Shown here one piece after another: positions 1 through 10,991 of a stretch of 39,240 nt of DNA. Numbering within the stretch: the first letter of the stretch is position 1; each line of letters starts with the position of its first letter. The DNA is from an uncultured Acetobacteraceae bacterium (lineage in GTDB: Bacteria; Pseudomonadota; Alphaproteobacteria; Acetobacterales; Acetobacteraceae): contig CALMVO010000150.1 of the NCBI GenBank assembly GCA_937873205.1, forward strand, positions 1 to 39,240, given 5' to 3'. The position numbers and the translations under genes are program-made. Below the pieces are notes generated by a model. The model made no database searches. It saw only the letters and a list, made by a program, of their open reading frames with translations, and was not told the origin of the DNA.

Positions 1-30
1 GGTCCAGGGGCAAGGCCCCTGGCCTTTTTT
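1..30. repeat. Partial copy of the four-hairpin repeat cassette (window edge)
   Basis: The edge carries CCAGGGGC, a three-base loop and GCCCCTGG followed by a T run. The same arm opens the complete cassettes at 25826-25945 and 35494-35609. Here it lies inside the open 3' end of the GH-SDR frame, so the true stop of that gene may be supplied by the repeat beyond the window. Confidence 0.7.
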
Positions 31-2011
31 GCACAAGACCGGGCCGCTCCGTCTCGATCCACCGCATCAGCTTGCCCACCCCATCCCGCCACCCGAGCGG
101 CGCCGCCAGTCCCAGCACCTCCCGCGCACGCCGCGTATCGGCGACGAAGTAGCGCTGGTCGCCGGTCCGCCAGGGATGCAGCGTGCGCTGCACGCGTCGG
201 CCGGTCTGACGCTCGATCTCCTCGATCAGCATCAGCAGCGTGATGGCGTTGTCGGCGCCACCGCCCAGGTTGAACGCCTGGCCGGCGACGGAGGGCGCAT
301 GATCCCGGGTGGCAAGGTAGGCCGCGACCGCGTCGCCCACTTCCAGCACGTCGCGCACCTGGCGGCCGTCGCCATACAGGCTGAGCGGCCGGTCCTGCAG
401 CGCCGAGAGCAGGAAGTGCGCGAGCCAGCCCTGGTCCTCGGTGCCGAGCTGGCGCGGCCCGTAGATGCAGCTCATCCGCAGCACCACCATCGGCAGCGCG
501 AACGAGCGCGCGTAGTCCAGCACGTACTGGTCGGCCGCCCCCTTGGAGCAGCCATACGGAGTGTGAAACGAGAGCGGCCGTGCCTCATCGATGCCGTGCG
601 CGCGGAGGGCCGGGTCGATCGGCAGGTAGGCGTCGCCATTGTGCGACAGCGGGATGTCGGCGAGATCGCCGTAAACCTTGTTGGTGCTGGCGAACACCAG
701 CGGCACCGGAACCGGCCGCTGTCGCAGCGCCTCCAGCAGGTTGAGCGTGCCGCGCAGGTTGACCTCGAAATCCGCCACCGGGTCGAGCAGGCTGGTGGTG
801 ACGGCGACCTGGCCGGCCAGGTGGAACACGCTCGACGCCTCGCGGGCGGCGTCGGCGACCGCGGCGCCGTCGCGTAGGTCGGCGATCGCCACCGAGATCC
901 GGGCACGGTGACGGCGCCGCAGCCAGTGCAGGTTCTCCTCGACGCCGGGCCGCGCCAGGCTGTCCAGGACCAGCACGTCCTCGCCGCCCTGGGCGAGCCG
1001 ATCGGCCAGGTTGCTGCCGATGAAGCCGGCACCCCCGGTCACCAACGCCGGGCGGATCCCGGCCAGCGCCGGCCGCGGCAACCCGGCCGCCGCCACCGCG
1101 CGCACGGCTTGCACCCCGCCCTCGGCCAGCAGCCGGCCGAGCAGCTTCGGCGCGCCGGCCTCCGTGTAGAGGCCGAAATGGTAGTGCCGCTCGTCGAAGT
1201 GCGGCCCCTCCTGCACCGCGACGTCGGCGGCAACGTCCTGCAGCCCGTACCAGTAGGTGCGCGCCACCGGCAGGTCGAGCAGTTCGACGAAGCGGCTGAG
1301 CTGCGCGAACGGATCGTGCCGCCAGGTCGAGTAGCCGGTCTCGGTGATCCACAGCTCGAGGGCCGGGTTGAACGCCCGCACCGTCTCGCCGACCGCGTCG
1401 ACCAGCGCCGGCCAGCCGCGCCAGGAGCGTGCCTCGCTGTCCCAGGTACCTGGAAACCCGTGCAGCCCGACCGCGTCCAGCACGCCGAGCAGGCCGCGCT
1501 CGCCCATCAGTCGCAGCCAGTTGAGGTCGGCCGGGCAGGGGCCGCCCAGCACCGCCTTCAGGCCGCGCCGCTGCACCCAGTAGGCGGCGGCGCCGGCCAT
1601 CTCGCAGAACAGCAGCCAGTCCTGGTCCTGCTGCCAGTCCCAGTCGAGCAGGTTATTGGGCTCGTTCCACAGCTCGACCGCCGGGAACAGCCCGTCGAAG
1701 CGGGTGATCAGGTGATCGATGAAGTCGGCGTAGGACCGGAGGTCGCGCGGCGGCCCGTTGGCGCGGCCGGTGCGGGACAGGCTGGGCGGCGTGAAGTGCA
1801 CGCAGGGCAGCAGCTCGACCGCGCGGGCCAGCCGCGGCACCAGCCAGCCATACCAGTCGGCGCCGCCGGGAGCGACGTATTCGGCCCACGAAATGTGCGT
1901 GCGCAGCCGGCCGACGCCAAGCGCCGCCATCCGTTCCAGGCTGGCCTCGACGCGCGCATGCTCGCCCGGCCGGAACCACTCGACCAGCCCGAGCGGCGAG
2001 CCTTCGGTCAT
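1..2011 (-). CDS. Fusion: clan GH-A glycosidase-like barrel + CDP-paratose/tyvelose 2-epimerase-type SDR (3' end outside window)
   Basis: One uninterrupted reading frame of 670 codons from an ATG that overlaps the stop of the upstream SDR gene (ATGA, 2008-2011). Residues 1 to about 300 resemble a clan GH-A TIM barrel: WNEP at 115-118 (Glu117 as the candidate acid/base) and WITETG at 221-226 (Glu224 as the candidate nucleophile). Residues about 320-655 are an extended SDR: GGAGFIG at 326-332 for NAD binding, STNKVYG, YGCSK with Tyr486 and Lys490, then SCIYGPRQ and GTEDQGW, a signature I associate with CDP-paratose (tyvelose) 2-epimerases. I translated the junction base by base (positions about 1021-1140) and saw no stop or shift, so the fusion is real in this sequence. 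No signal peptide is visible, so a cytoplasmic role is expected. Substrate is unknown. The frame reads into a hairpin repeat at the left edge without a stop. Confidence 0.85.
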   Translation of the reverse strand, partial: MTEGSPLGLVEWFRPGEHARVEASLERMAALGVGRLRTHISWAEYVAPGGADWYGWLVPRLARAVELLPCVHFTPPSLSRTGRANGPPRDLRSYADFIDHLITRFDGLFPAVELWNEPNNLLDWDWQQDQDWLLFCEMAGAAAYWVQRRGLKAVLGGPCPADLNWLRLMGERGLLGVLDAVGLHGFPGTWDSEARSWRGWPALVDAVGETVRAFNPALELWITETGYSTWRHDPFAQLSRFVELLDLPVARTYWYGLQDVAADVAVQEGPHFDERHYHFGLYTEAGAPKLLGRLLAEGGVQAVRAVAAAGLPRPALAGIRPALVTGGAGFIGSNLADRLAQGGEDVLVLDSLARPGVEENLHWLRRRHRARISVAIADLRDGAAVADAAREASSVFHLAGQVAVTTSLLDPVADFEVNLRGTLNLLEALRQRPVPVPLVFASTNKVYGDLADIPLSHNGDAYLPIDPALRAHGIDEARPLSFHTPYGCSKGAADQYVLDYARSFALPMVVLRMSCIYGPRQLGTEDQGWLAHFLLSALQDRPLSLYGDGRQVRDVLEVGDAVAAYLATRDHAPSVAGQAFNLGGGADNAITLLMLIEEIERQTGRRVQRTLHPWRTGDQRYFVADTRRAREVLGLAAPLGWRDGVGKLMRWIETERPGLVQKRPGALPLD

Positions 2012-3120
2012 GCCACCAGCCCGCGCGCTTCCAGCTCCAGCCTCGCTTCCTGGACCCGGTCGGTCGCCTGCTGGCGGCGTACCCACTCCATCTGCTCCGG
2101 CAGCGCGTTGGCGAAGGTGCGCACCGGCTCGAAGCCCAGCACGGCACGGGCCAGGGTGATGTCGGAGAAGCAGTGCCGGATGTCGCCGGAACGCGCCTTG
2201 CCGACCAGCTCCGGCTCGAGGTGACCCAGATCCATCGCCGCCGCCGCCGCCCTTGCCACCTCGGCGATCGACACGTCGATGCCGCTGCCGATGTTGAACA
2301 CCTGACCTGCCGCCGCCGGATGATCGAGGGAGAGCAGGAACGCCTGCACCACGTCGTCCACGTGCACGAAGTCGCGCCGCTGCAGCCCGTCCTCGAACAC
2401 CAGCGGCCGCTCGCGGTGCAGCAGCCGCGAGGCAAAGATCGCCAGCACCCCGGTATAGGGGTTGGAGAGCGCCTGGCCCGGGCCGTAGACGTTGAACATC
2501 CGCAGCGCCACGCCCTCGATGCCATAGGCGGCGGGCGCGCAGAGCACCATGCGCTCCTGCATGTACTTGGTGATCGCGTAGACCGAGGCCAGGCGGGTGG
2601 CCTTCCACTCCGGCGTCGCCGCCGGGATCAGCGCCTGCCCGTCCGGCCCGACCGGGTCCCAGCCGACGCCGGGCGCGCGGGCCGGCCGCATCACGTCCTG
2701 CATCGCCGTGCCGTCGGCGGTAACATAGAGCCCCTCGCCATAGACCGACATCGACGACGCCACCACGACGCGCTTCACCGGATGCTCGATCAGCGCCTGG
2801 CACAGCACCGCGGTGCCGAGATCGTTCACCGAGACGTAGCGCTCGATCAGGTACATGCTCTGGCCGACGCCGACATCGGCGGCGAGGTGGATCACCTTGT
2901 CGATGCCGATCAGCGCCCGGCCGAGCGCGTCGGGGTCGCGGATGTCGGCCTGCACCAGCTCGACGCCGTCCGGCACGGATTCCGGCGTGGCGCCGTGCGG
3001 ATGCACCTGCTCGATCAGGCTGTCATAGACCCGCACCTGATCGCCGCGGGCGAGCAGCGCCCGCGCCACGTGGCGGCCGATGAAGCCGGCGCCCCCGGTG
3101 ACCAGTATCCGCTCCGCCAT
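2008..3120 (-). CDS. SDR sugar-nucleotide epimerase, dTDP-L-rhamnose 4-epimerase-like
   Basis: A 370-residue extended SDR. It starts MAERILVTGGAGFIG, with the NAD-binding GGAGFIG near residues 9-15. It then shows a DSLIEQVH segment, HLAADVGVGQSMY, SSMSVYGEG and the catalytic pair in YAITK. The QSMY and ASSMSVYGEG features are those of the WbiB-type dTDP-L-rhamnose 4-epimerases, so a 6-deoxysugar epimerase is likely, although the exact substrate is inference. The start at 3120 is chosen because a purine-rich GGGAGG stretch lies just upstream. A longer frame to 3243 exists, but its extra N-terminus is encoded by the palindromic repeat at 3189-3296 and is not credible. The gene is translationally coupled (ATGA) to the downstream GH-SDR fusion, so the two enzymes probably act on the same sugar. 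Confidence 0.85.
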   Translation of the reverse strand: MAERILVTGGAGFIGRHVARALLARGDQVRVYDSLIEQVHPHGATPESVPDGVELVQADIRDPDALGRALIGIDKVIHLAADVGVGQSMYLIERYVSVNDLGTAVLCQALIEHPVKRVVVASSMSVYGEGLYVTADGTAMQDVMRPARAPGVGWDPVGPDGQALIPAATPEWKATRLASVYAITKYMQERMVLCAPAAYGIEGVALRMFNVYGPGQALSNPYTGVLAIFASRLLHRERPLVFEDGLQRRDFVHVDDVVQAFLLSLDHPAAAGQVFNIGSGIDVSIAEVARAAAAAMDLGHLEPELVGKARSGDIRHCFSDITLARAVLGFEPVRTFANALPEQMEWVRRQQATDRVQEARLELEARGLVA

Positions 3121-3188
3121 CCCGATCCGCCTCCCGTCGCCTCCCCCATCATCAGGAAGAAGAAGCCTCCCGGCAATGGCGACGGCGT

Positions 3189-3296
3189 CTAGAGCATCAT
3201 CCGGTCGAACGGACTCGTTCGAACGGATAAAGGTGCTCGTCAAAACAACAAGCTAGAGGATGATCCGTGAGCCCAAGCGATCGGATCATCCTCTAG
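3189..3296 (-). repeat. 108-bp MITE-like palindromic element, copy A
   Basis: Bounded by CTAG on both sides with imperfect 15-bp terminal inverted repeats (CTAGAGGATGATCCG against CTAGAGCATCATCCG, 13 of 15 matching). Inside are two stems: one of 15 bp around a 14-base loop, and one where TCCGTTCGAACG-type sequence faces its partner inside a GAGC...GCTC frame. It is nearly identical in sequence, in the opposite orientation, to copies B (10884-10991) and C (11023-11129). Its edge provides the TAG stop codon of the DUF2141 gene at 3293. Confidence 0.9.
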
Positions 3297-3718
3297 TAAT
3301 AATGCAGCGTGACCGCGATCGCGGCGTCCGCCATGCCCACGCGCAGTGCGCACGATCCGAACGAGGGCGGTCCGAACCCCGGCTTCGGATCGCGGGAGAA
3401 GCCCATTCCACCGCGGGGAATGCCGAACAGCCCGCGGCGCAGATGGCCGAGATCGGTCTCGTCCTGATAGGCGGCAACGGCGTACACACCCGGCCGTACG
3501 TCCGGGATGGTCGCGACGACGGTGCCCGGACGCGCCGACACGATCGCGTTATAGACGCAACGCTCGTGCAGGAATTCGGCGCGCTCGCATACGCCGATGC
3601 GGACATGGCCGAGGCCGCTGCGCACGCCCTGCACCGAGACGCTGAGCGTGGCCGCTCGTCCCGCCGTCGGCAGCAGGGCAATGGCGAGGGCGGCGACCAG
3701 GTGGCCGGCCCGGGTCAT
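3293..3718 (-). CDS. Secreted DUF2141-family protein of the carotenoid cluster
   Basis: A 141-residue protein beginning MTRAGHLVAALAIALLP, a clear cleavable signal peptide with a probable AxA-type site near GRAAT at residues 20-24. The body has the small beta-sandwich character of DUF2141 (pattern RIGVCERAEFL, PDVRPGVYAVAAYQDE, LFGIPRGGMGFS, then FGPPSF). Two cysteines (in VCERAEF and ERCVYN) could form a periplasmic disulfide. The start overlaps the upstream glycosyltransferase stop (ATGA, 3715-3718), so it belongs to the carotenoid operon as its last gene. The function of DUF2141 is unknown. The export signal suggests an envelope partner for the finished pigment rather than a catalytic step, which is inference. 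Its stop codon TAG is the first three bases of the repeat's CTAG boundary. Confidence 0.85.
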   Translation of the reverse strand: MTRAGHLVAALAIALLPTAGRAATLSVSVQGVRSGLGHVRIGVCERAEFLHERCVYNAIVSARPGTVVATIPDVRPGVYAVAAYQDETDLGHLRRGLFGIPRGGMGFSRDPKPGFGPPSFGSCALRVGMADAAIAVTLHYY

Positions 3719-4818
3719 GCGGGCGCGTAGCTCCGGCCGCGCCAGGTCGCCGGCCGGCCCGACCGCGCGCGGGCCAGTGCCATCCACTGCAGCCCCAACA
3801 GCGTCAGCACCCCCGCCGGATGCGCCGTCGCGCCGCGCAGGCTTTGCCGGAAGCGGCGCGCCAGCAGGGCGCGCAGCGCCACGTTGCACAGCACCGCCGC
3901 CAGCGCCGGCGGGCTCGGCGCCAGCAGCATCAGCGCCGCCGGCAGCACGTGGCCGCCGCCAAGCAGCACGGTCCAGACCGGCAACGCGCGGCGGCTCGCC
4001 ATGCCCTCGGTCGCGTTCTTCGACAACCCCTCCCAGAGGTCGCGTCGGTTCCCGTACATGCGGCAGGTGGCGATCGCGGTGGCGTCGAACAGGCCGGTGG
4101 CCAGCCCGTGGCGGCGGAAGGCGCGGGGCAGGGTGAGCCCGTCATGCAGCGAGGCGCGGATCGCCTGGTGGCCGCCCATGGCGCGGTAGCCGTCCCGCCT
4201 GGCGATGAAGAGCTGCCCGCAGCCGGCGGCGAAGCGCGGATCGACCTGGCCGACGTCGAAGACCTGCGGTCGGTAGCCGAACAGCAGCAGGTGGATCAGC
4301 GGCAGCAGCAGCCGCTCCGACCAGCTCCCGGTGATCTGTCGCGGCACCCCGCTGGCCAGCGCCACGTCCGGGTTGGCCTGCATGTACCCCGCCATGCGCG
4401 ACACCGCATCGGGCGCCAACCGCACGTCGGCATCGACGAACACCAGCAGCGGATGCCGCGCCTCGGCGCCGAGCCGCGCGCAGGCATGCTGCTTGCCCGA
4501 CCAGCCGGCCGGCAGCGCGCCGCTGCCGGCGACCACGCGCAGGCGCGGGTCGGCGATCGCCGCCAGGATCTCCGGCGTGGCGTCGGTGGAGCCGTCGTCC
4601 AGCACCAGCAGCTCGAGTTCGACGTCGACGCTGGCCAGCACGCAGCCGACGGCGTCCGCGATGTTGCCGGCCTCGTCGCGAGCCGGGATCAGCACCGAGA
4701 CCGCCGGCCGCGTTGTCGCTGCCAGGGGGGTGCGCAGCCGGCGCAGGTTGCCGACCGCCACCACAAGCGGCAGGGCGGCCAGCCCCAGCGCCACCCAGCC
4801 AGCCGCGATTCGGATCAC
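3715..4818 (-). CDS. Family 2 glycosyltransferase, CrtQ-like (carotenoid glycosylation)
   Basis: A 367-residue protein with an N-terminal membrane segment (about residues 5-22), then a GT-A fold: SVLIPARDEAGNI, LDDGSTDAT, WSGKQHACARLG and FVDADV, the last being the DXD metal site. Further membrane segments lie in the C-terminal third (around VWTVLLGGGHVLPAALMLL). Spacing and the WSGKQ motif match the glucosyltransferases found beside CrtN/CrtP genes, such as staphyloxanthin CrtQ; HpnB-like hopanoid enzymes are relatives and a less likely alternative. It overlaps the acyltransferase stop/start by ATGA (4815-4818) and the DUF2141 gene by ATGA, so it is in the middle of a coupled operon. Expected role: transfer of a sugar to a carboxylated or hydroxylated carotenoid at the cytoplasmic membrane. 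Confidence 0.82.
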   Translation of the reverse strand: MIRIAAGWVALGLAALPLVVAVGNLRRLRTPLAATTRPAVSVLIPARDEAGNIADAVGCVLASVDVELELLVLDDGSTDATPEILAAIADPRLRVVAGSGALPAGWSGKQHACARLGAEARHPLLVFVDADVRLAPDAVSRMAGYMQANPDVALASGVPRQITGSWSERLLLPLIHLLLFGYRPQVFDVGQVDPRFAAGCGQLFIARRDGYRAMGGHQAIRASLHDGLTLPRAFRRHGLATGLFDATAIATCRMYGNRRDLWEGLSKNATEGMASRRALPVWTVLLGGGHVLPAALMLLAPSPPALAAVLCNVALRALLARRFRQSLRGATAHPAGVLTLLGLQWMALARARSGRPATWRGRSYAPA

Positions 4819-5612
4819 GCCTCCTCGCCGTGCGAGGCGACGAACCGGCGTCCCGAGGCCCAGCTGCGCATCCGGCGCCAGCCGTCATAGGCCAGGCCGG
4901 TGCCGGTGCTGCCACGCAGCAGTCGGGTGAAGCGGGCGGGGTCGCGCGCCTGCGCGTCCTCGGCCAGCCGGTCCATGGTCTCGGTGAGGGCTGCCTCCAG
5001 GTGCCGCGTCCAGTCGGCCGGCCGGATGAAGCGGTCGCCCACGAGCGGCGTGCCGAAGCGGATCAGAAGCTCGGGCCGGCTTTCGTTCCAGAACGCGTAC
5101 TCGAGTGCCAGCGGCACCAGCACGGCGTCCGGCACCACCGCAGCCAGGTGCGCGATGCCGGGACGCAGCCGGACCGGGCGCACCCGCGGGTCGGTGAAGT
5201 CGCCCTCGGCGGTGATCCACATCATGAACCGGCCGGCCGGCCCGCCCGGATCGCCCAGCACCCGGCGCGACACCGACAGGAAGCGGCGGGCGCCGGTGGC
5301 AGTATGCTTGTCGATCCCGAAGATGCCGAGCCGGCGGAAGAAGCCGTATCGGACCAGCGCCTCGTCATCCATCGGCCCGAAGCCGGGCCGGCCGCGGAAC
5401 CGCATGTCGGCCAGCAGGATGTAGACCGCCGGATCCCACCAGGACGGATGGTTGCCGAACACGATCAGCGGCCGGTCGGCCGGCAACGTCGCGGTATCGG
5501 TGCCGGACAGACGGATGGCGCGGAACCGTCGCCCGGCCGACCAGCGCAGGTAAAGCGCGAACAGCCGGAACAGAGGTTCCGACCGGGCAGCGACCGGGTC
5601 GTCCGGTGTCAG
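4815..5612 (-). CDS. Lysophospholipid-type (PlsC-like) acyltransferase of the carotenoid cluster
   Basis: About 265 residues. FGNHPSWWDP carries the HX4D catalytic motif (His55, Asp60 with the start chosen here), followed by a second block ending in the conserved TAEGDFT segment. This is the PlsC/AGPAT fold, and the position between desaturase and glycosyltransferase genes suggests acylation of the sugar or carotenoid, the role CrtO has in staphyloxanthin synthesis (by analogy only, since Staphylococcus CrtO is another fold). There is no ATG, GTG or TTG near the expected N-terminus in this frame. A CTG at 5612, overlapping the desaturase stop as CTGA, is the best-placed initiation codon, so expression probably depends on translational coupling. 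The exact start is uncertain by some residues. Confidence 0.78.
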   Translation of the reverse strand: MTPDDPVAARSEPLFRLFALYLRWSAGRRFRAIRLSGTDTATLPADRPLIVFGNHPSWWDPAVYILLADMRFRGRPGFGPMDDEALVRYGFFRRLGIFGIDKHTATGARRFLSVSRRVLGDPGGPAGRFMMWITAEGDFTDPRVRPVRLRPGIAHLAAVVPDAVLVPLALEYAFWNESRPELLIRFGTPLVGDRFIRPADWTRHLEAALTETMDRLAEDAQARDPARFTRLLRGSTGTGLAYDGWRRMRSWASGRRFVASHGEEA

Positions 5613-7150
5613 GCGCTCAGCCTCGCGTCCGGGTCGTTGCGCCGCATGTCCTGGTCGAGGCTGTCGGCGGCGATCCAGCCCGACATCATCACCATCGGCA
5701 TCCCCGGTCCCGGGTGGGCGGCGCCGCCGGCCAGATACAGCCCGGGCAGGTCGCGCGAGCGGTTGCCGGGCTTGAAGGCGCCGACGAAGCGGCCGTGGCT
5801 GGCCAGCCCGTAGATGGCGCCGTCCAGCACCCGGTAGCGCTCGTGGATGTCGGCCGGCGTCAGGATGCGCTCGACCCGGATGCGGGACTCCAGGTCCTTC
5901 AGGCCGGCCGTGCGCGCCAGCTTGTCGAGGATGACGCGGCGGTAGCCCGGCAGCATCGCGGTCCAGTCGTGGTGCGGCCGCAGATAGGGCGTGTGCACCA
6001 GTACGTAGAGCGCCTCGCCGCCGGGCGGTGCCACGCCGGGCTCGGTGCGGGAGGGTGCGGCGACGTAGCAGGTCGGATCGGGCGCCGGCTCGCCCTTCTT
6101 GTAGATGAAGTCGAACTCCTCCTCCGGATCGCGCGAGAAGACGAAATCGTGGTGCAGCAGGTGGTCGTAGGCGCGGTCGAGGCCGAGATACATCACCACG
6201 CCGGAGCAGGCGGCCTCGCGCTTGCGGCGCCGCGTGAAGCTGCGGTCGGCGGCCCCGCCGACCAGCTCGCGATAGGTGCGCACGCTGTCCATGTTCGACA
6301 CGACGGCAGAGAGCGGCACCGTCTCGCCCGCCTCCGTGACGACGCCGTCCGCGCGTCCGCCGCTCTGGGTGATGCGCGCGATCCCGGTGCCGAGCCGGAT
6401 GTCGACGCCGAGCCGTTCGGCCAGCGCGGTCAGCGCGTCCGGCACCGCGCGTGTGCCGCCCATCGGATACCAGATCCCCTCCTGCACCTGCATGTGCGCG
6501 ATGCTGCACAGCACCGCCGGCGCCAGGTAGGGCGAGGAGCCGACATACTGCGTGAAATGGTCCAGCATCTGCGACACCCGCTCGTCGCCGATGCGCTTCC
6601 TGATCTCGCGCGCCACCGTCGAGCCCATGCGCAGGCTCATGACGTCGCGCAACGTCGTCAGGTCCATGTTCTTCTTCAGGTCCATCGTGTCGCCGATATC
6701 CTCGACCGACCGCCAGAAGAAGAACTTCTTGCTGACCTCATGCAGCTTCTCGCTCATGGCGAGGAAGTCGACGTAGCCCTGCTCGGTGCCGGCCTCGCCC
6801 GCGCCCGAGAAGCCGCGCAGGCGCAGGGCCATGGCGGCGATGTCCTCGTCGAGGTCGAGCACGGCGCCATCCTCGAAGAAGCAGCGCCATTGCGGGTCGA
6901 GCCGGCGCAGATCGAGCCGATCGGCCATCCTCTCGTCCGCCTCGGAGAAGATGCGCGCCAGGACCGAGGGCACGGTCAAGATGGTCGGCCCCATGTCGAA
7001 GCGGTAGCCGTCCTCCTCGTACAGCGCCGCCTTGCCGCCGAGCCAATCGTTCTTCTCGAACAGCACCACCTTGTGGCCGCGCGCGGCCAGGGTGCAGGCG
7101 GCGGCGAGCCCGCCCAGGCCCGAGCCGATGACGCCGACGGGATCGGTCAT
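5609..7150 (-). CDS. CrtI/CrtN-family carotenoid desaturase or oxidase (first in cluster order from the left)
   Basis: A 513-residue FAD-dependent amine-oxidase-like protein. The N-terminus MTDPVGVIGSGLGGLAAA gives the GxGxxG dinucleotide motif at about residues 9-14, then LFEKNDWLGGKA. The C-terminus LYLAGGAAHPGPGMPMV is the conserved CrtI-family FAD-binding end. Length fits the phytoene/diapophytoene desaturase family (about 490-520). With a second, divergent paralogue immediately upstream, the pair looks like CrtN plus CrtP/CrtNb: one to desaturate, one to oxidise a terminal methyl. Which does which cannot be fixed from sequence alone. It overlaps the neighbouring paralogue by ATGA (7147-7150). 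Confidence 0.88.
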   Translation of the reverse strand: MTDPVGVIGSGLGGLAAACTLAARGHKVVLFEKNDWLGGKAALYEEDGYRFDMGPTILTVPSVLARIFSEADERMADRLDLRRLDPQWRCFFEDGAVLDLDEDIAAMALRLRGFSGAGEAGTEQGYVDFLAMSEKLHEVSKKFFFWRSVEDIGDTMDLKKNMDLTTLRDVMSLRMGSTVAREIRKRIGDERVSQMLDHFTQYVGSSPYLAPAVLCSIAHMQVQEGIWYPMGGTRAVPDALTALAERLGVDIRLGTGIARITQSGGRADGVVTEAGETVPLSAVVSNMDSVRTYRELVGGAADRSFTRRRKREAACSGVVMYLGLDRAYDHLLHHDFVFSRDPEEEFDFIYKKGEPAPDPTCYVAAPSRTEPGVAPPGGEALYVLVHTPYLRPHHDWTAMLPGYRRVILDKLARTAGLKDLESRIRVERILTPADIHERYRVLDGAIYGLASHGRFVGAFKPGNRSRDLPGLYLAGGAAHPGPGMPMVMMSGWIAADSLDQDMRRNDPDARLSA

Positions 7151-8721
7151 GCGACGCCTCCTTCGAGAACCTGTTGCATCGGCGCGCCGTCGGTGCCGGT
7201 CCATTCCATCTCGGCGCCGACCGGGCGCAGCCCCAGATCCTCCGCCAGCAGCCGCGAGCTGATCCTGGCCCCCTCGAAGATCACCGGCAGCCCGCTGCCC
7301 GGATGGGTGCCGCCGCCAACCAGGTAGACCCCGTCCAGGTCCTCGAAGCGGTTGTGCGGCCGGAACTGCAGCATCTGCGTCAGCGAGTGGGCGAGGTTGA
7401 ACACCGCCCCCCGGTGCACGGCGTGGTCGGTGTCCCAGTCCGGCGGCGTGATCATCTTCTCGTAGACGATGCGGCGCTCGATGTCGGGCACACCGGCGCG
7501 CGCCAGCCGGTCCAGGATCAGCCGCCGGAACCGGGGGCCGGCCTCGGCCCAATCGATGCCGCCGTCGCGCTCGTGGCCGACCGGGACAAGTACATAGAGA
7601 GTGGAATGGTTCGGGGGGGCCAGCGCCGGGTCGGTGATGCAGGCGTTCTGGATGTAGAAGCAGGGCTCGCCGGGCGGCACCCGGCCCTCCTCGACGTCGG
7701 CCAGCGTGCGGGCATAATCGTGTGACAGGTAGATCGTGTGGTGCGCCAGTTCCGGGAGCCGCCCCTCGATGCCCAGATAGAGCATGAAGGTGGAGCAGGA
7801 GAGCTTCGCCTTGGCGATGCGGCGGTCGGTCCAGCGCCGGCGCAGATCCTGCGGCACCAGGTGCGCCATCGCGTGCAGGAAGTCGGCGTTCATCACCACG
7901 GCATCGGCGCGGGTGTCGCCCGCATCGGTGCGGACGCCCACCGCGCGGCGACCCTCGAACTTCAGCTCGCGCACCGGTTCGCCGAGCCGGAACACCACGC
8001 CCATCTGCCGCGCCGCATCGGCCATCGCCCGCATGACGGCGCCGTGGCCGCCGCGCGGATGGTAGATGCCGAACTCGTATTCCATGAACGCCAGGATGGT
8101 AAACAGGCTGGGACACCGATACGGCGACATGCCGAGGTACTTGCTCTGGAACGAGAAGCCGAGCCGCACCCGCGGATCCTTGAACCAGCGCTTGAGGTCG
8201 CTGTCGACCGACCGCGTCGGCCGCAGCATCCGCAGCGCCTTCAGCACATCCGGCTTCAGCAGGTCGGCGAAGCTGTTGAACGGGCTCTCCAGCACCGGTC
8301 GGAAAGCCGCCAGCTTGGCTCGGTTGTCGGCCATGAAGGCCGGGATCATCGCCGCATCCTCGGGGCAGAGCTCGGCCACCGAGCGCTGCAGCCGCGCGAT
8401 GTCGCTGCTGGCGGTGATGCGGCCGGCATCCTCGAAGATCACGTCGTAGTGGGTGTCGAGCCGGATCAGCTCGACCGCATCCTCCAGACGCCGGCCGCAG
8501 CTGGCGAAGATGTCGGCCAGCACGCGCGGATAGAGGAAGAAGGTCGGCCCGATATCGAAGTGGAACCGGCCCTGCGCCGTCGGCGCCTCGATCGTCCCGG
8601 ATCTGCCACCGACAGTGGCGTGTCGTTCGAAGACTGTGACCTCGGCTCCAGCGTTGGAAAGCAGCATCGCCGCTGCAAGGCCGCCGGGACCGGCACCTAT
8701 GATTGAGACGGACCTGTTCAT
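7147..8721 (-). CDS. CrtI/CrtN-family carotenoid desaturase or oxidase (promoter-proximal paralogue)
   Basis: A 524-residue paralogue starting MNRSVSIIGAGPGGLAAAM, with the FAD-binding GxGxxG at about residues 9-14 followed by FERHATVGGRSG. The C-terminal FAD block reads VYLVGGGTHPGSGLPVI. The central SLFTILAFMEYEFGIYHP and RGGHGAVMRAMA segments resemble the C30 desaturases (CrtN) of methylotrophs and staphylococci, so this copy is the better CrtN candidate; that is inference. It is the first gene of the coupled run 8721 to 3293 and is divergent from nadE, with a 114-base gap holding the regulatory sequence of both. No phytoene or squalene synthase is in the window, so the precursor pathway must be elsewhere. 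Confidence 0.88.
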   Translation of the reverse strand: MNRSVSIIGAGPGGLAAAMLLSNAGAEVTVFERHATVGGRSGTIEAPTAQGRFHFDIGPTFFLYPRVLADIFASCGRRLEDAVELIRLDTHYDVIFEDAGRITASSDIARLQRSVAELCPEDAAMIPAFMADNRAKLAAFRPVLESPFNSFADLLKPDVLKALRMLRPTRSVDSDLKRWFKDPRVRLGFSFQSKYLGMSPYRCPSLFTILAFMEYEFGIYHPRGGHGAVMRAMADAARQMGVVFRLGEPVRELKFEGRRAVGVRTDAGDTRADAVVMNADFLHAMAHLVPQDLRRRWTDRRIAKAKLSCSTFMLYLGIEGRLPELAHHTIYLSHDYARTLADVEEGRVPPGEPCFYIQNACITDPALAPPNHSTLYVLVPVGHERDGGIDWAEAGPRFRRLILDRLARAGVPDIERRIVYEKMITPPDWDTDHAVHRGAVFNLAHSLTQMLQFRPHNRFEDLDGVYLVGGGTHPGSGLPVIFEGARISSRLLAEDLGLRPVGAEMEWTGTDGAPMQQVLEGGVA

Positions 8722-8777
8722 CTGCCCTAAAGCCTTACATGCTTCTCCGGCACGCACCAGCCGTGCGGCCCGCTTCA

Positions 8778-8794
8778 GACCGGGTTTTCCGGTC
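8778..8794. promoter_or_regulatory. Small perfect inverted repeat in the crt/nadE divergent gap
   Basis: GACCGG, five bases, CCGGTC. It lies between the divergent starts of the carotenoid operon (8721) and nadE (8836). It could be an operator or chance; no convincing -35/-10 pair was seen beside it. Confidence 0.25.
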
Positions 8795-8835
8795 ACATGC
8801 CTGGCAACATCGTTCCAGCCCAGCAGGGGTCGCCC

Positions 8836-10875
8836 ATGCCGGAGTTCCGGTCCCTCTACCGCCACGGCTTCGCCCGCGTCGCCGCCTGCACGCAGCCGGT
8901 GACGCTCGCCGACCCGCTCGCCAATGCCGAGGCTACACTGGCATTCGGCCGGGAACTGGCGGAGGACGGCGTCGTGTTGGCGGTGTTCCCCGAGCTCGGC
9001 CTGTCCGGCTACGCGATCGACGACCTCCGGCTGCAGGACGCGCTGCTGGACGCGGTCGAGCTGGCGCTGACCCGTCTCATGGAGCAGGGCGGCGACCTGC
9101 TGCCGGTCCTGGCGGTCGGCGCCCCCCTGCGCCATCGCGGCGCGCTGTTCAATTGCGCCGTGGTGCTGCACCGGGGCCGCATCCTGGGCGTGGTGCCGAA
9201 ATCCTACCTGCCGAACTACCGCGAGTTCTACGAGGCGCGGCAGTTCGCCCCCGGTGTGGGCCGCGTCGGCGAGACGATCGCCGTGGCCGGGGTGCGGGCG
9301 CCGTTCGGCACCGACCTGCTGTTCGAGGTGGACGACATGCCGGGCTTCGTGCTCGGCGTGGAGATCTGCGAGGATCTCTGGGTGCCGCTGCCGCCCAGCA
9401 CGCGGGCGGCGCTGGCCGGCGCCACGGTGATCGCCAACCTTTCGGCGAGCAACATCACCATCGGCAAGGCCGAGACCAGGCGGCTGCTGTGCCAGTCGCA
9501 GTCGGCGCGGGCCCTCTGCGCCTACGTCTACGCCGCCGCCGGCGAGGGAGAATCCACCAACGACGTCGCCTGGGACGGCCAGGTTTCGATCTTCGAGGCC
9601 GGAGCGCCCCTGGCCGAGACCGCGCGCTTTCCGTCCGGCGCCCAGGCGGCGGTGGCCGACCTCGACCTCGACCTGCTGCGCCAGGAGCGCGCCAGGATGA
9701 ACACCTTCGACGCCAACCGCGCGGCGTCGGACGTCACCCCCTATCGCCGCGTCGGCTTCGCGCTGTCGCCGCCGGATCGCGATTTCGGGCTGCGCCGGCC
9801 GCTGGAGCGGTTCCCGTTCGTGCCCGCCGACCCGGCCCGGCTGAGCCAGGACTGCTACGAGGCCTACACCATCCAGGTCACCGCGCTGATGCAGCGCATG
9901 CGCGCGATCGGCGTGCGCCGCCTGGTGATCGGCGTCTCCGGTGGCCTCGACTCGACGCAGGCGCTGATCGTGGCCGCGCACGCGGTGGACCGGCTCGGCT
10001 TCGGCCGCGACGCCATCCTCGCCTACACCATGCCGGGCTTCGGCACCGGCGAGGGGACGAGGCGAAACGCGCTCGCCCTGATGGCCGCCCTGGGCGTCAC
10101 CGCCACCGAGCTCGACATCCGGCCGACCGCCACCCTGATGCTGCGCGAGATGGGCCACCCGTTCGGACGCGGCGAGCCGGTGCACGACGTCACCTTCGAG
10201 AACGTGCAGGCGGGGCTCCGCACCGACTACCTGTTCCGGCTCGCCAACCAGCACGGTGGCATCGTGGTCGGCACCGGCGACCTGTCCGAGCTCGGGCTCG
10301 GCTGGTGCACCTATGGCGTCGGCGACCAGATGTCGCACTACAACGTCAACGCGGGCGTGCCCAAGACGCTGATCCAGCACCTGATCCGCTGGGTGATCGC
10401 CTCCGCGCAGTTCGAGCCGCCGGTCCTGCGCACGCTGGGCGCCATCCTCGATACCGAGATCTCCCCCGAGCTGGTGCCGGCCGGCGAGGGGAGCGCGCCG
10501 CAGAGCACCGAGGCCGCCATCGGCCCCTACGCGCTGCAGGACTTCACCCTGTTCCACCTGCTGCGCTACGGCTTCCGTCCGTCCAAGGTGGCTTATCTGG
10601 CGCTGATGGCCTGGGAGGATGCCGGCCGCGGCGACTGGCCGCCCGGCTTCCCGGAGGCTGGCCGCGTCGCCTACGATCTGCCGGCGATCCGGCACTGGAT
10701 GGGGGTGTTCCTGCAGCGGTTCTTCGGCTTCGCCCAGTTCAAGCGCAGCGCCGCGCCGAACGGCCCCAAGCTGTCGGCCGGCGGCGCGCTGTCGCCGCGC
10801 GGCGACTGGCGCGCGCCCTCCGACGCCAGCGCCCGCGCCTGGCTGGACGAGCTGCGCCGCAACGTTCCCGAATAG
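8836..10875 (+). CDS. nadE: Glutamine-dependent NAD(+) synthetase
   Basis: A 679-residue enzyme that amidates nicotinic acid adenine dinucleotide to NAD using glutamine. The N-terminal half is a nitrilase-fold amidotransferase: Glu in FPELGLSGYAIDDL, Lys in VVPKSYLPNYREFYE and Cys in GVEICEDLW form the catalytic triad. The C-terminal half is the synthetase with the PP-loop SGGLDSTQAL and the conserved block GTGDLSELGLGWCTYGVGDQ. Length fits the bacterial two-domain form. The start at 8836 (MPEFRSLYRHGFARV) is preferred because family members begin with this kind of YRHGF segment and a CAGGGG stretch precedes it. An in-frame ATG at 8797 would add 13 residues. Monocistronic: MITE-like copy B begins 8 bases after the stop. 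Confidence 0.93.
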   Translation: MPEFRSLYRHGFARVAACTQPVTLADPLANAEATLAFGRELAEDGVVLAVFPELGLSGYAIDDLRLQDALLDAVELALTRLMEQGGDLLPVLAVGAPLRHRGALFNCAVVLHRGRILGVVPKSYLPNYREFYEARQFAPGVGRVGETIAVAGVRAPFGTDLLFEVDDMPGFVLGVEICEDLWVPLPPSTRAALAGATVIANLSASNITIGKAETRRLLCQSQSARALCAYVYAAAGEGESTNDVAWDGQVSIFEAGAPLAETARFPSGAQAAVADLDLDLLRQERARMNTFDANRAASDVTPYRRVGFALSPPDRDFGLRRPLERFPFVPADPARLSQDCYEAYTIQVTALMQRMRAIGVRRLVIGVSGGLDSTQALIVAAHAVDRLGFGRDAILAYTMPGFGTGEGTRRNALALMAALGVTATELDIRPTATLMLREMGHPFGRGEPVHDVTFENVQAGLRTDYLFRLANQHGGIVVGTGDLSELGLGWCTYGVGDQMSHYNVNAGVPKTLIQHLIRWVIASAQFEPPVLRTLGAILDTEISPELVPAGEGSAPQSTEAAIGPYALQDFTLFHLLRYGFRPSKVAYLALMAWEDAGRGDWPPGFPEAGRVAYDLPAIRHWMGVFLQRFFGFAQFKRSAAPNGPKLSAGGALSPRGDWRAPSDASARAWLDELRRNVPE

Positions 10876-10883
10876 GGCGTCGA

Positions 10884-10991
10884 CTAGAGGATGATCCGAT
10901 CGCTTAGGCTCACGGATCATCCTCTAGCTTGTTGTTTTGACGAGCATCTTTATCCGATCGAACGAGTCCGTTCGATCGGATGATGCTCTAG
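10884..10991 (+). repeat. 108-bp MITE-like palindromic element, copy B
   Basis: Starts CTAGAGGATGATCCG and ends CGGATGATGCTCTAG. A 15-bp perfect stem (CTAGAGGATGATCCG with CGGATCATCCTCTAG) is followed by a linker with GTTGTTTTGACG and a second stem, TCCGATCGAACG facing CGTTCGATCGGA, framed by GAGCATC and GATGCTC. It lies just after the nadE stop and could also act as a terminator-like structure. Confidence 0.92.

Follow-up and report, generated by a model that had tools for sequence, protein, structure and literature searches.

The window, that is the whole stretch of DNA analysed here, comprises 39,240 nucleotides of contig CALMVO010000150.1 (C150) from an uncultured Acetobacteraceae bacterium, and its base 1 is the first base of that contig. 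On the minus strand, a gene starts with an ATG at position 2011 and stays open to base 2, giving 669 or more codons with 0 stops inside the window. Since the open frame runs to the contig start, the true C-terminus of the protein lies outside the data. Residues 1-313 (1073..2011, minus strand) make up a (beta/alpha)8 barrel that is like clan GH-A and GH39-PslG. On the same strand, the codons of Glu117 in WNEPNN (1661..1663) and of Glu224 in WITETG (1340..1342) occupy, by alignment to PslG, the positions of the general acid/base and the nucleophile, respectively. The barrel is followed at residues about 319-655 (47..1057, minus strand) by an extended SDR resembling CDP-tyvelose 2-epimerases. 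Alignment to the solved chains 9rl0 and 1orr places its triad at 542..685 of this strand, with Thr443 at 683-685, Tyr486 at 554-556 and Lys490 at 542-544, while the GTEDQGW loop (residues 523-529; 425..445, minus strand) was located by alignment to solved epimerases.

A preliminary description of this DNA had read barrel and SDR as one frame, with Glu117 in WNEP and Glu224 in ITETG. The minus-strand frame is indeed uninterrupted, and both glutamates are found at the positions given. A frameshift or sequencing error at the junction of the two domains (about 1057-1073) was looked for and none was found. Such an error is ruled out by the GC content at codon position 3 (0.91-0.96 across four blocks of codons 1-400), by the open junctions of two congeners (barrel identity 78 and 83%) and by the single frame seen in 78 of the best 80 relatives.

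The fusion gene is preceded by the first SDR gene of an operon (P0003; 2008..3120, minus strand), the probable start of which is the Met of MAERILVTGG and the stop codon of which overlaps the ATG of the fusion (ATGA). At its 3' end, the fusion is interrupted by a hairpin/T-run repeat with which the contig ends (1..30, no strand assigned). This repeat of 26-32 bases is spread over many contigs, and 24 of the 36 match rows in the genome cover that stretch alone. The start of another contig of the genome, C35, is 83% alike over 71 bases. The operon continues on C35 with a radical-SAM gene at 174-1463, followed by three glycosyltransferase matches. Rfam gave 0 matches over window positions 1-4000. 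Upstream of the operon, positions 3715-10920 of the minus strand encode an HpnB/CruG-like GT2, a PlsC-like acyltransferase and two desaturases of the CrtI/CrtD type; homologues of the GT2 and the PlsC-like gene also adjoin the operon in the congeneric genomes G001 and G004. Judging from this gene content, a connection of the operon with a glycosylated carotenoid is possible.

The fusion had been described as uncommon, which is wrong. A scan of genome contigs yielded at least 549 encoding stretches, and the 80 best were retained; it relied partly on the WNEPN pattern, and dead barrels could be under-sampled in it. In 78 of these best 80 relatives, distributed over 10 phyla, both domains are fused in one frame (in one of them, L096, the SDR half is more divergent), and the other two run off their contigs. 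The fusion as a rare oddity is therefore ruled out. Homologues that are consistently split, with a dead or unconserved barrel, had been named as a result that would speak against the fusion; instead, fusion and a conserved barrel are what the best 80 relatives show. The survey of neighbours that had been proposed shows a widespread gene with nearly always the same operon around it.

This operon consists of an SDR gene, the barrel-SDR fusion, either a B12-radical-SAM gene or a Zn-dehydrogenase together with a Gfo/Idh gene, a GT4, three glycosyltransferases and a TIGR04290 methyltransferase, and the gene order agrees in annotated records. Conservation was counted in 87 loci (L026-L112, where L027 and L033 are one contig and L029-L032 are split loci), in which the operon is often truncated at its 3' end by the flank. 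Homologues of the first SDR with more than 45% identity occur in 86/87 loci, the three glycosyltransferases in 83/87, 83/87 and 81/87, the GT4 in 78/87 and the methyltransferase in 64/87. An SDR resembling UDP-glucuronate decarboxylases is present in part of the loci (33/87 at >45% identity). Four annotated records list neither a flippase nor a polymerase or ABC exporter within the operon. In a set of 101 loci with a length of 15 kb or more (from L026-L112, L143-L145, L186, L187 and L189-L208), 25 have the B12-radical-SAM gene (TIGR04295), 66 the Zn-dehydrogenase with Gfo/Idh, 4 the dehydrogenase only and 6 neither, and 0 have both. This suggests a non-homologous replacement of one step; perhaps the alternatives are two ways to invert one stereocentre. 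The region 465-495 kb of pSymB of S. meliloti 1021 (L188) was rejected as a candidate for the same operon, as it gave SDR-type matches only. Neither the barrel-SDR fusion nor a permuted clan GH-A enzyme is reported in the open-licence PubMed Central literature among the matches listed.

Upstream of the operon, 29 of 37 alphaproteobacterial loci (L034-L062 and others) carry the motif GGAAC-N15..19-GTT, which we take to be the promoter consensus of the EcfG general stress regulon of Alphaproteobacteria; it occurs in 130 of 2950 control windows. In 24 of the 29, the site lies 58-80 bases ahead of the aligned start of the first SDR gene. A further set of 23 loci, 13 from Acetobacteraceae, has the same motif in 7, and the operons of the window and of L026 and L027, which belong to the same genus, lack it upstream. 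In the Alphaproteobacteria that bear the motif, the operon may thus be part of the general stress response.

As to the barrel itself, searches of the natural-order domain against Pfam (to E 10) and NCBIfam (to E 1) gave no match, and no signal peptide was seen on inspection by eye. Since Foldseek with the full AlphaFold2 model gave solely SDR-type proteins among the matches listed, a profile search was used to place the barrel. A profile built from 45 natural barrels has PslG (GH39, clan GH-A) as its best solved match (E 1.4e-5), followed by weaker matches to chains named beta-glucosidase (from E 0.005) and beta-xylosidase (E 0.03-0.2). Both catalytic glutamates of PslG align with Glu117 and Glu224; in the available part of the PslG paper they are numbered Glu165 (acid/base) and Glu276 (nucleophile) (PMC11912335), with an offset between chain and paper numbering that we infer. 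The AlphaFold2 model, based on 51 sequences, has a mean pLDDT of 90.6 and contains the SDR as well as eight barrel strands (7-11, 35-41, 66-72, 111-114, 152-155, 180-185, 219-225 and 251-255). In the prediction, Glu117 stands at the end of beta4 directly after an Asn and Glu224 at beta7, as is characteristic of clan GH-A. The clan GH-A-like barrel with two catalytic glutamates that had been proposed is thus borne out by profile match and predicted strands alike.

PslG resembles the natural barrel in its strand order and in both aligned glutamates, and it is tied to polysaccharide production. It differs from the fused barrel in that the match is a distant one at profile level, that PslG is mainly periplasmic and that the solved PslG chains lack an SDR. 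Of 79 fused proteins that were aligned, 78 have both Glu117 and Glu224; the one without them is encoded on L106, a contig from Acidobacteriia. Because the glutamates are conserved, the barrel is considered to be an enzyme, and from its sequence it would be an active retaining beta-glycosidase or transglycosidase of clan GH-A.

The closest solved relatives of the SDR half, by both Foldseek and phmmer, are CDP-tyvelose 2-epimerases: 1orr (TM 0.94-0.95 by target length, 41-42% identity) and TaTyvE, 9rl0 (E 3e-80). The triad of TaTyvE is Thr124/Tyr164/Lys168 in the accessible part of the publication (PMC13098431), and the residues in contact with CDP were taken from the accessible part of another one (PMC7851689), in which Tyr203 makes a main-chain contact. 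As far as these excerpts define the residues, the SDR half shares with 1orr and TaTyvE the fold, the Thr/Tyr/Lys triad, the TNK segment and most phosphate and ribose contacts: the equivalents of Trp207 (Trp529), Phe211 (Phe533), Gln235, Arg237 and Arg299 are retained. On the same basis, the set contacting cytosine is incomplete, with Glu525 for Tyr203 and His532 for Trp210. This Glu/His pair is found in 103 of 104 SDR halves, the remaining one not being matched, and the fused barrel is a further difference from 1orr and TaTyvE. In the loop, the two solved enzymes read ATYDQGW-x-GWF, and the fusion family reads GTE or GNE, followed by DQGW-x-AHF. Consequently, of the tyvelose-type SDR with the CDP-paratose signature GTEDQGW that had been announced, the tyvelose-epimerase-like SDR stands and the signature does not.

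These relationships are what speaks for a true CDP-paratose or CDP-glucose 2-epimerase, in an operon that runs on CDP-sugars: CDP-tyvelose 2-epimerases are nearest among the solved structures, and the triad, the TNK segment and five contact residues are conserved. We consider this reading doubtful, given the Glu/His pair at the Tyr203 and Trp210 equivalents and the distribution of glucose-1-phosphate cytidylyltransferase (TIGR02623). The latter scores above cut-off in just 10 of 25 operon genomes (a count that leaves out L050) and in 0 of the window genome (G000) and its congeners G001 and G004; in G000 the best match has E 2.3e-8, below the cut-off. As two cytosine-contact positions differ and TIGR02623 stays below cut-off in its own genome, CDP-glucose is an unlikely substrate for the SDR. 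The assignment as a plain CDP-paratose enzyme was rejected on the loop residues and the cytidylyltransferase distribution.

A second form of the barrel exists as a stand-alone protein, in which strands beta4-beta8 come first and are followed by beta1-beta3. In 7 Acetobacteraceae genomes, the counterpart of natural-barrel residues 107-291 precedes that of residues 6-105 on the same strand; two homologous segments are thus exchanged and the new termini lie inside the old chain, as in a circular permutation. The start codon is found exactly 7 codons before WNEP in 29 of 30 permuted genes (ATG in 24, GTG in 5), and in 17 of the 30 the frame ahead of WNEP is shorter than 70 residues, which is not enough to accommodate beta1-beta3. 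AlphaFold2 predicts eight strands in the permuted order (pLDDT 86, pTM 0.87). Profiles of the natural and the permuted form match with probability 100 over beta4-beta8, and when 3 permuted barrels are re-ordered and aligned together with 4 natural ones, 60 columns are invariant, both glutamates among them. The beta7 glutamate is kept in 51/51 permuted sequences; as these were chosen by the motif WNEPNN, it alone is a free test. In a quick, unrooted tree, all 51 different permuted sequences group together, apart from 42 natural ones (SH-aLRT 100), and a branch of about 2 changes per site separates the two sets. In view of this long branch, the substrates of permutant and natural barrel may differ. 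The natural order is probably ancestral, because PslG has it as well.

In Pfam, the permuted barrel has a sub-threshold match to PF11790 (E 0.005, 16.9 bits against 21), and Foldseek with its model returns mostly generic barrels and partial GH matches, as expected of a permuted chain. Several NCBI records label the protein a beta-xylosidase. Those near a TIGR04290 methyltransferase in Sinorhizobium and Bradyrhizobium contain the homologous barrel, the best records being 81-82% identical to the permuted query; they are stand-alone and circularly permuted, whereas the fused barrel of the window has the natural order. The permutant occurs in 97 plasmid records, 66 of them from Sinorhizobium. Its gene directly follows a methyltransferase gene of the TIGR04290 type in L012 and L015, and several permuted loci sit apart from the rest of the operon. 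Neighbours common to two phyla, Pontibacter ruber (L219:4956-10398) and S. meliloti (L186:13330-17351), are, by annotation and Pfam, a histidine phosphatase, a polysaccharide pyruvyl transferase and a gene like the F420 hydrogenase beta subunit. In Bradyrhizobium sp. 195 (L187:9635-16147), the permuted barrel is flanked by genes annotated as inositol-3-phosphate synthase, nucleotidyltransferase and phosphopentomutase, a hint at the acceptor of the product.

In 249 Acetobacteraceae genomes, a barrel is present in 45, 36 permuted and 9 natural, and 0 were scored as having both. A class sample of 385 genomes gave 14 matches, 7 permuted and 7 natural, with one genome (G592) that also holds a degenerate natural copy, and a phylum sample of 398 genomes gave 26, of which 11 are permuted, 3 natural and 12 weak. 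A query with the epimerase, independent of the barrel, found it in 43 of 249 Acetobacteraceae genomes at E up to 1e-100; the resulting table of 42 does not include G119, whose epimerase-like SDR has none of the operon genes beside it within the 13 kb examined. Among these operon genomes, all 33 that bear the permutant are without an active fused barrel, which is deleted in 31 and dead in 2. In 29 of the 31 deletions, the distance between the two SDR genes was measured at -15 to 33 nt, with no barrel; the other two (L296 and L297) likewise have no barrel there. The 2 dead cases (G077 and G155) have a degenerate fused barrel with neither glutamate. All 9 operon genomes without a permutant, the window included, keep both glutamates of the fused barrel. 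The Fisher value for the 33/9 split is 2e-9; it ignores relatedness and serves as a guide only, since the sampling is phylogenetically nested and the split represents far fewer than 42 independent events. In three permutant-bearing draft genomes (G021, G165 and G189), the epimerase query found no match.

Dead fused barrels, that is those without the glutamates, were found in three lineages, always alongside an intact permutant. In addition to the two Acetobacteraceae genomes, four species of one genus (g359; G592 and G1343-G1345) have a permutant and a fused barrel in which WNEP has become AAAP or AATP and Glu224 Gly or Ala; in a fifth g359 genome (G1342), the permutant is present and the epimerase was not located. 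The third case is L106, which reads WNRPDD, has Ala at 224 and carries a permutant after its methyltransferase gene. The permutants of all 7 genomes with a dead fused barrel have both glutamates intact. When 32 fused genomes from the first scan were tested, a permutant was found in 2, L106 with its dead barrel and Pontibacter ruber with an intact one. Among 50 Pontibacter genomes, 3 have both forms, 22 the fused form only and 1 a weak fragment, and in the three with both, the glutamates are intact in fused barrel and permutant. The Pontibacter permutants lie at separate loci, and the 20 kb around that of P. ruber are without the operon; because of this location, the permutant may have another job there.

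It could be imagined that the barrel is a non-catalytic domain for glycan binding or scaffolding and the permutant an unrelated paralogue with a role of its own. The retention of both forms in Pontibacter would fit, as would the frames of the glutamate-less fused barrels, which stay open over 649-1005 codons, so that a structural role may persist. The idea seems improbable, though, since 78 of 79 fused proteins have both glutamates, the WNEPNN-chosen permutants all have the beta7 glutamate, and glutamate loss is seen only in permutant-bearing genomes. We give equally little credence to a neutral history, in which fission and permutation had no consequence and the barrel forms merely follow lineage without any replacement. 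The states do cluster on the SDR tree, where 5 changes suffice to explain the barrel-less, epimerase-alone state, compared with 13.4 when labels are shuffled; on the same tree, which takes in 14 barrel-less rows and not all known ones, a single barrel-less clade is rejected (AU p 1e-7). What argues against neutrality is that dead but still present fused barrels, each time with an intact permutant, are the intermediates that replacement predicts, and that the genus g119 contains one genome of each state.

The reading that we prefer, to which we assign a probability of roughly 70%, is that of a two-enzyme operon protein with an active barrel that can be replaced in trans by the permutant and is then inactivated or deleted. 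The fusion would be a two-enzyme polypeptide of a conserved operon for the biosynthesis of a glycan or glycoside. Its C-terminal SDR would interconvert the C2 epimers of a nucleotide sugar, probably not CDP-glucose, by NAD-dependent oxidation and reduction, and its N-terminal barrel would process an intracellular glycoside made by the operon. In many bacteria, the stand-alone circular permutant of the same barrel would take over, whereupon the fused barrel loses both glutamates or is deleted and the epimerase is left alone. That the permutant can do the work of the fused barrel is suggested by the pattern of decay; domain architecture, conservation, permutation and decay are observed, and this equivalence and both reactions are what we infer from the genomes. 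As the permutant acts unlinked, the fusion would not be essential. The preliminary model, which couples glycan reading by the barrel to tuning of the donor pool by the SDR, is thereby weakened, the barrel evidently being supplied by an unlinked permutant in many genomes. In a bolder extension, the barrel may be a proofreading glycosidase: it would remove glycosides built with the wrong C2 epimer, and its fusion to a reversible 2-epimerase would be explained in this way.

Circularly permuted pairs of glycoside hydrolases exist, for example GH13/GH70, in a clan other than the one concerned here. The present case is similar in being a natural circular permutation of a glycosidase barrel. Unlike in GH13/GH70, the permutant appears to take the place of one domain within a different protein, and that domain then decays. 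It is fairly likely that, on several occasions, a bifunctional protein had a catalytic domain replaced by the natural permutant of that same domain, the resident copy then being inactivated and finally cut out, with the intermediates still visible. The coexistence of active fused, dead fused and deleted states, with a permuted partner in trans, constitutes a natural experiment on the need for fusion. Furthermore, an uncharacterised glycosidase-like family that has no Pfam model comes into view, as does an uncharacterised operon of wide conservation, and with the permuted/natural pair, fold permutation, domain replacement and operon function can be tested directly.
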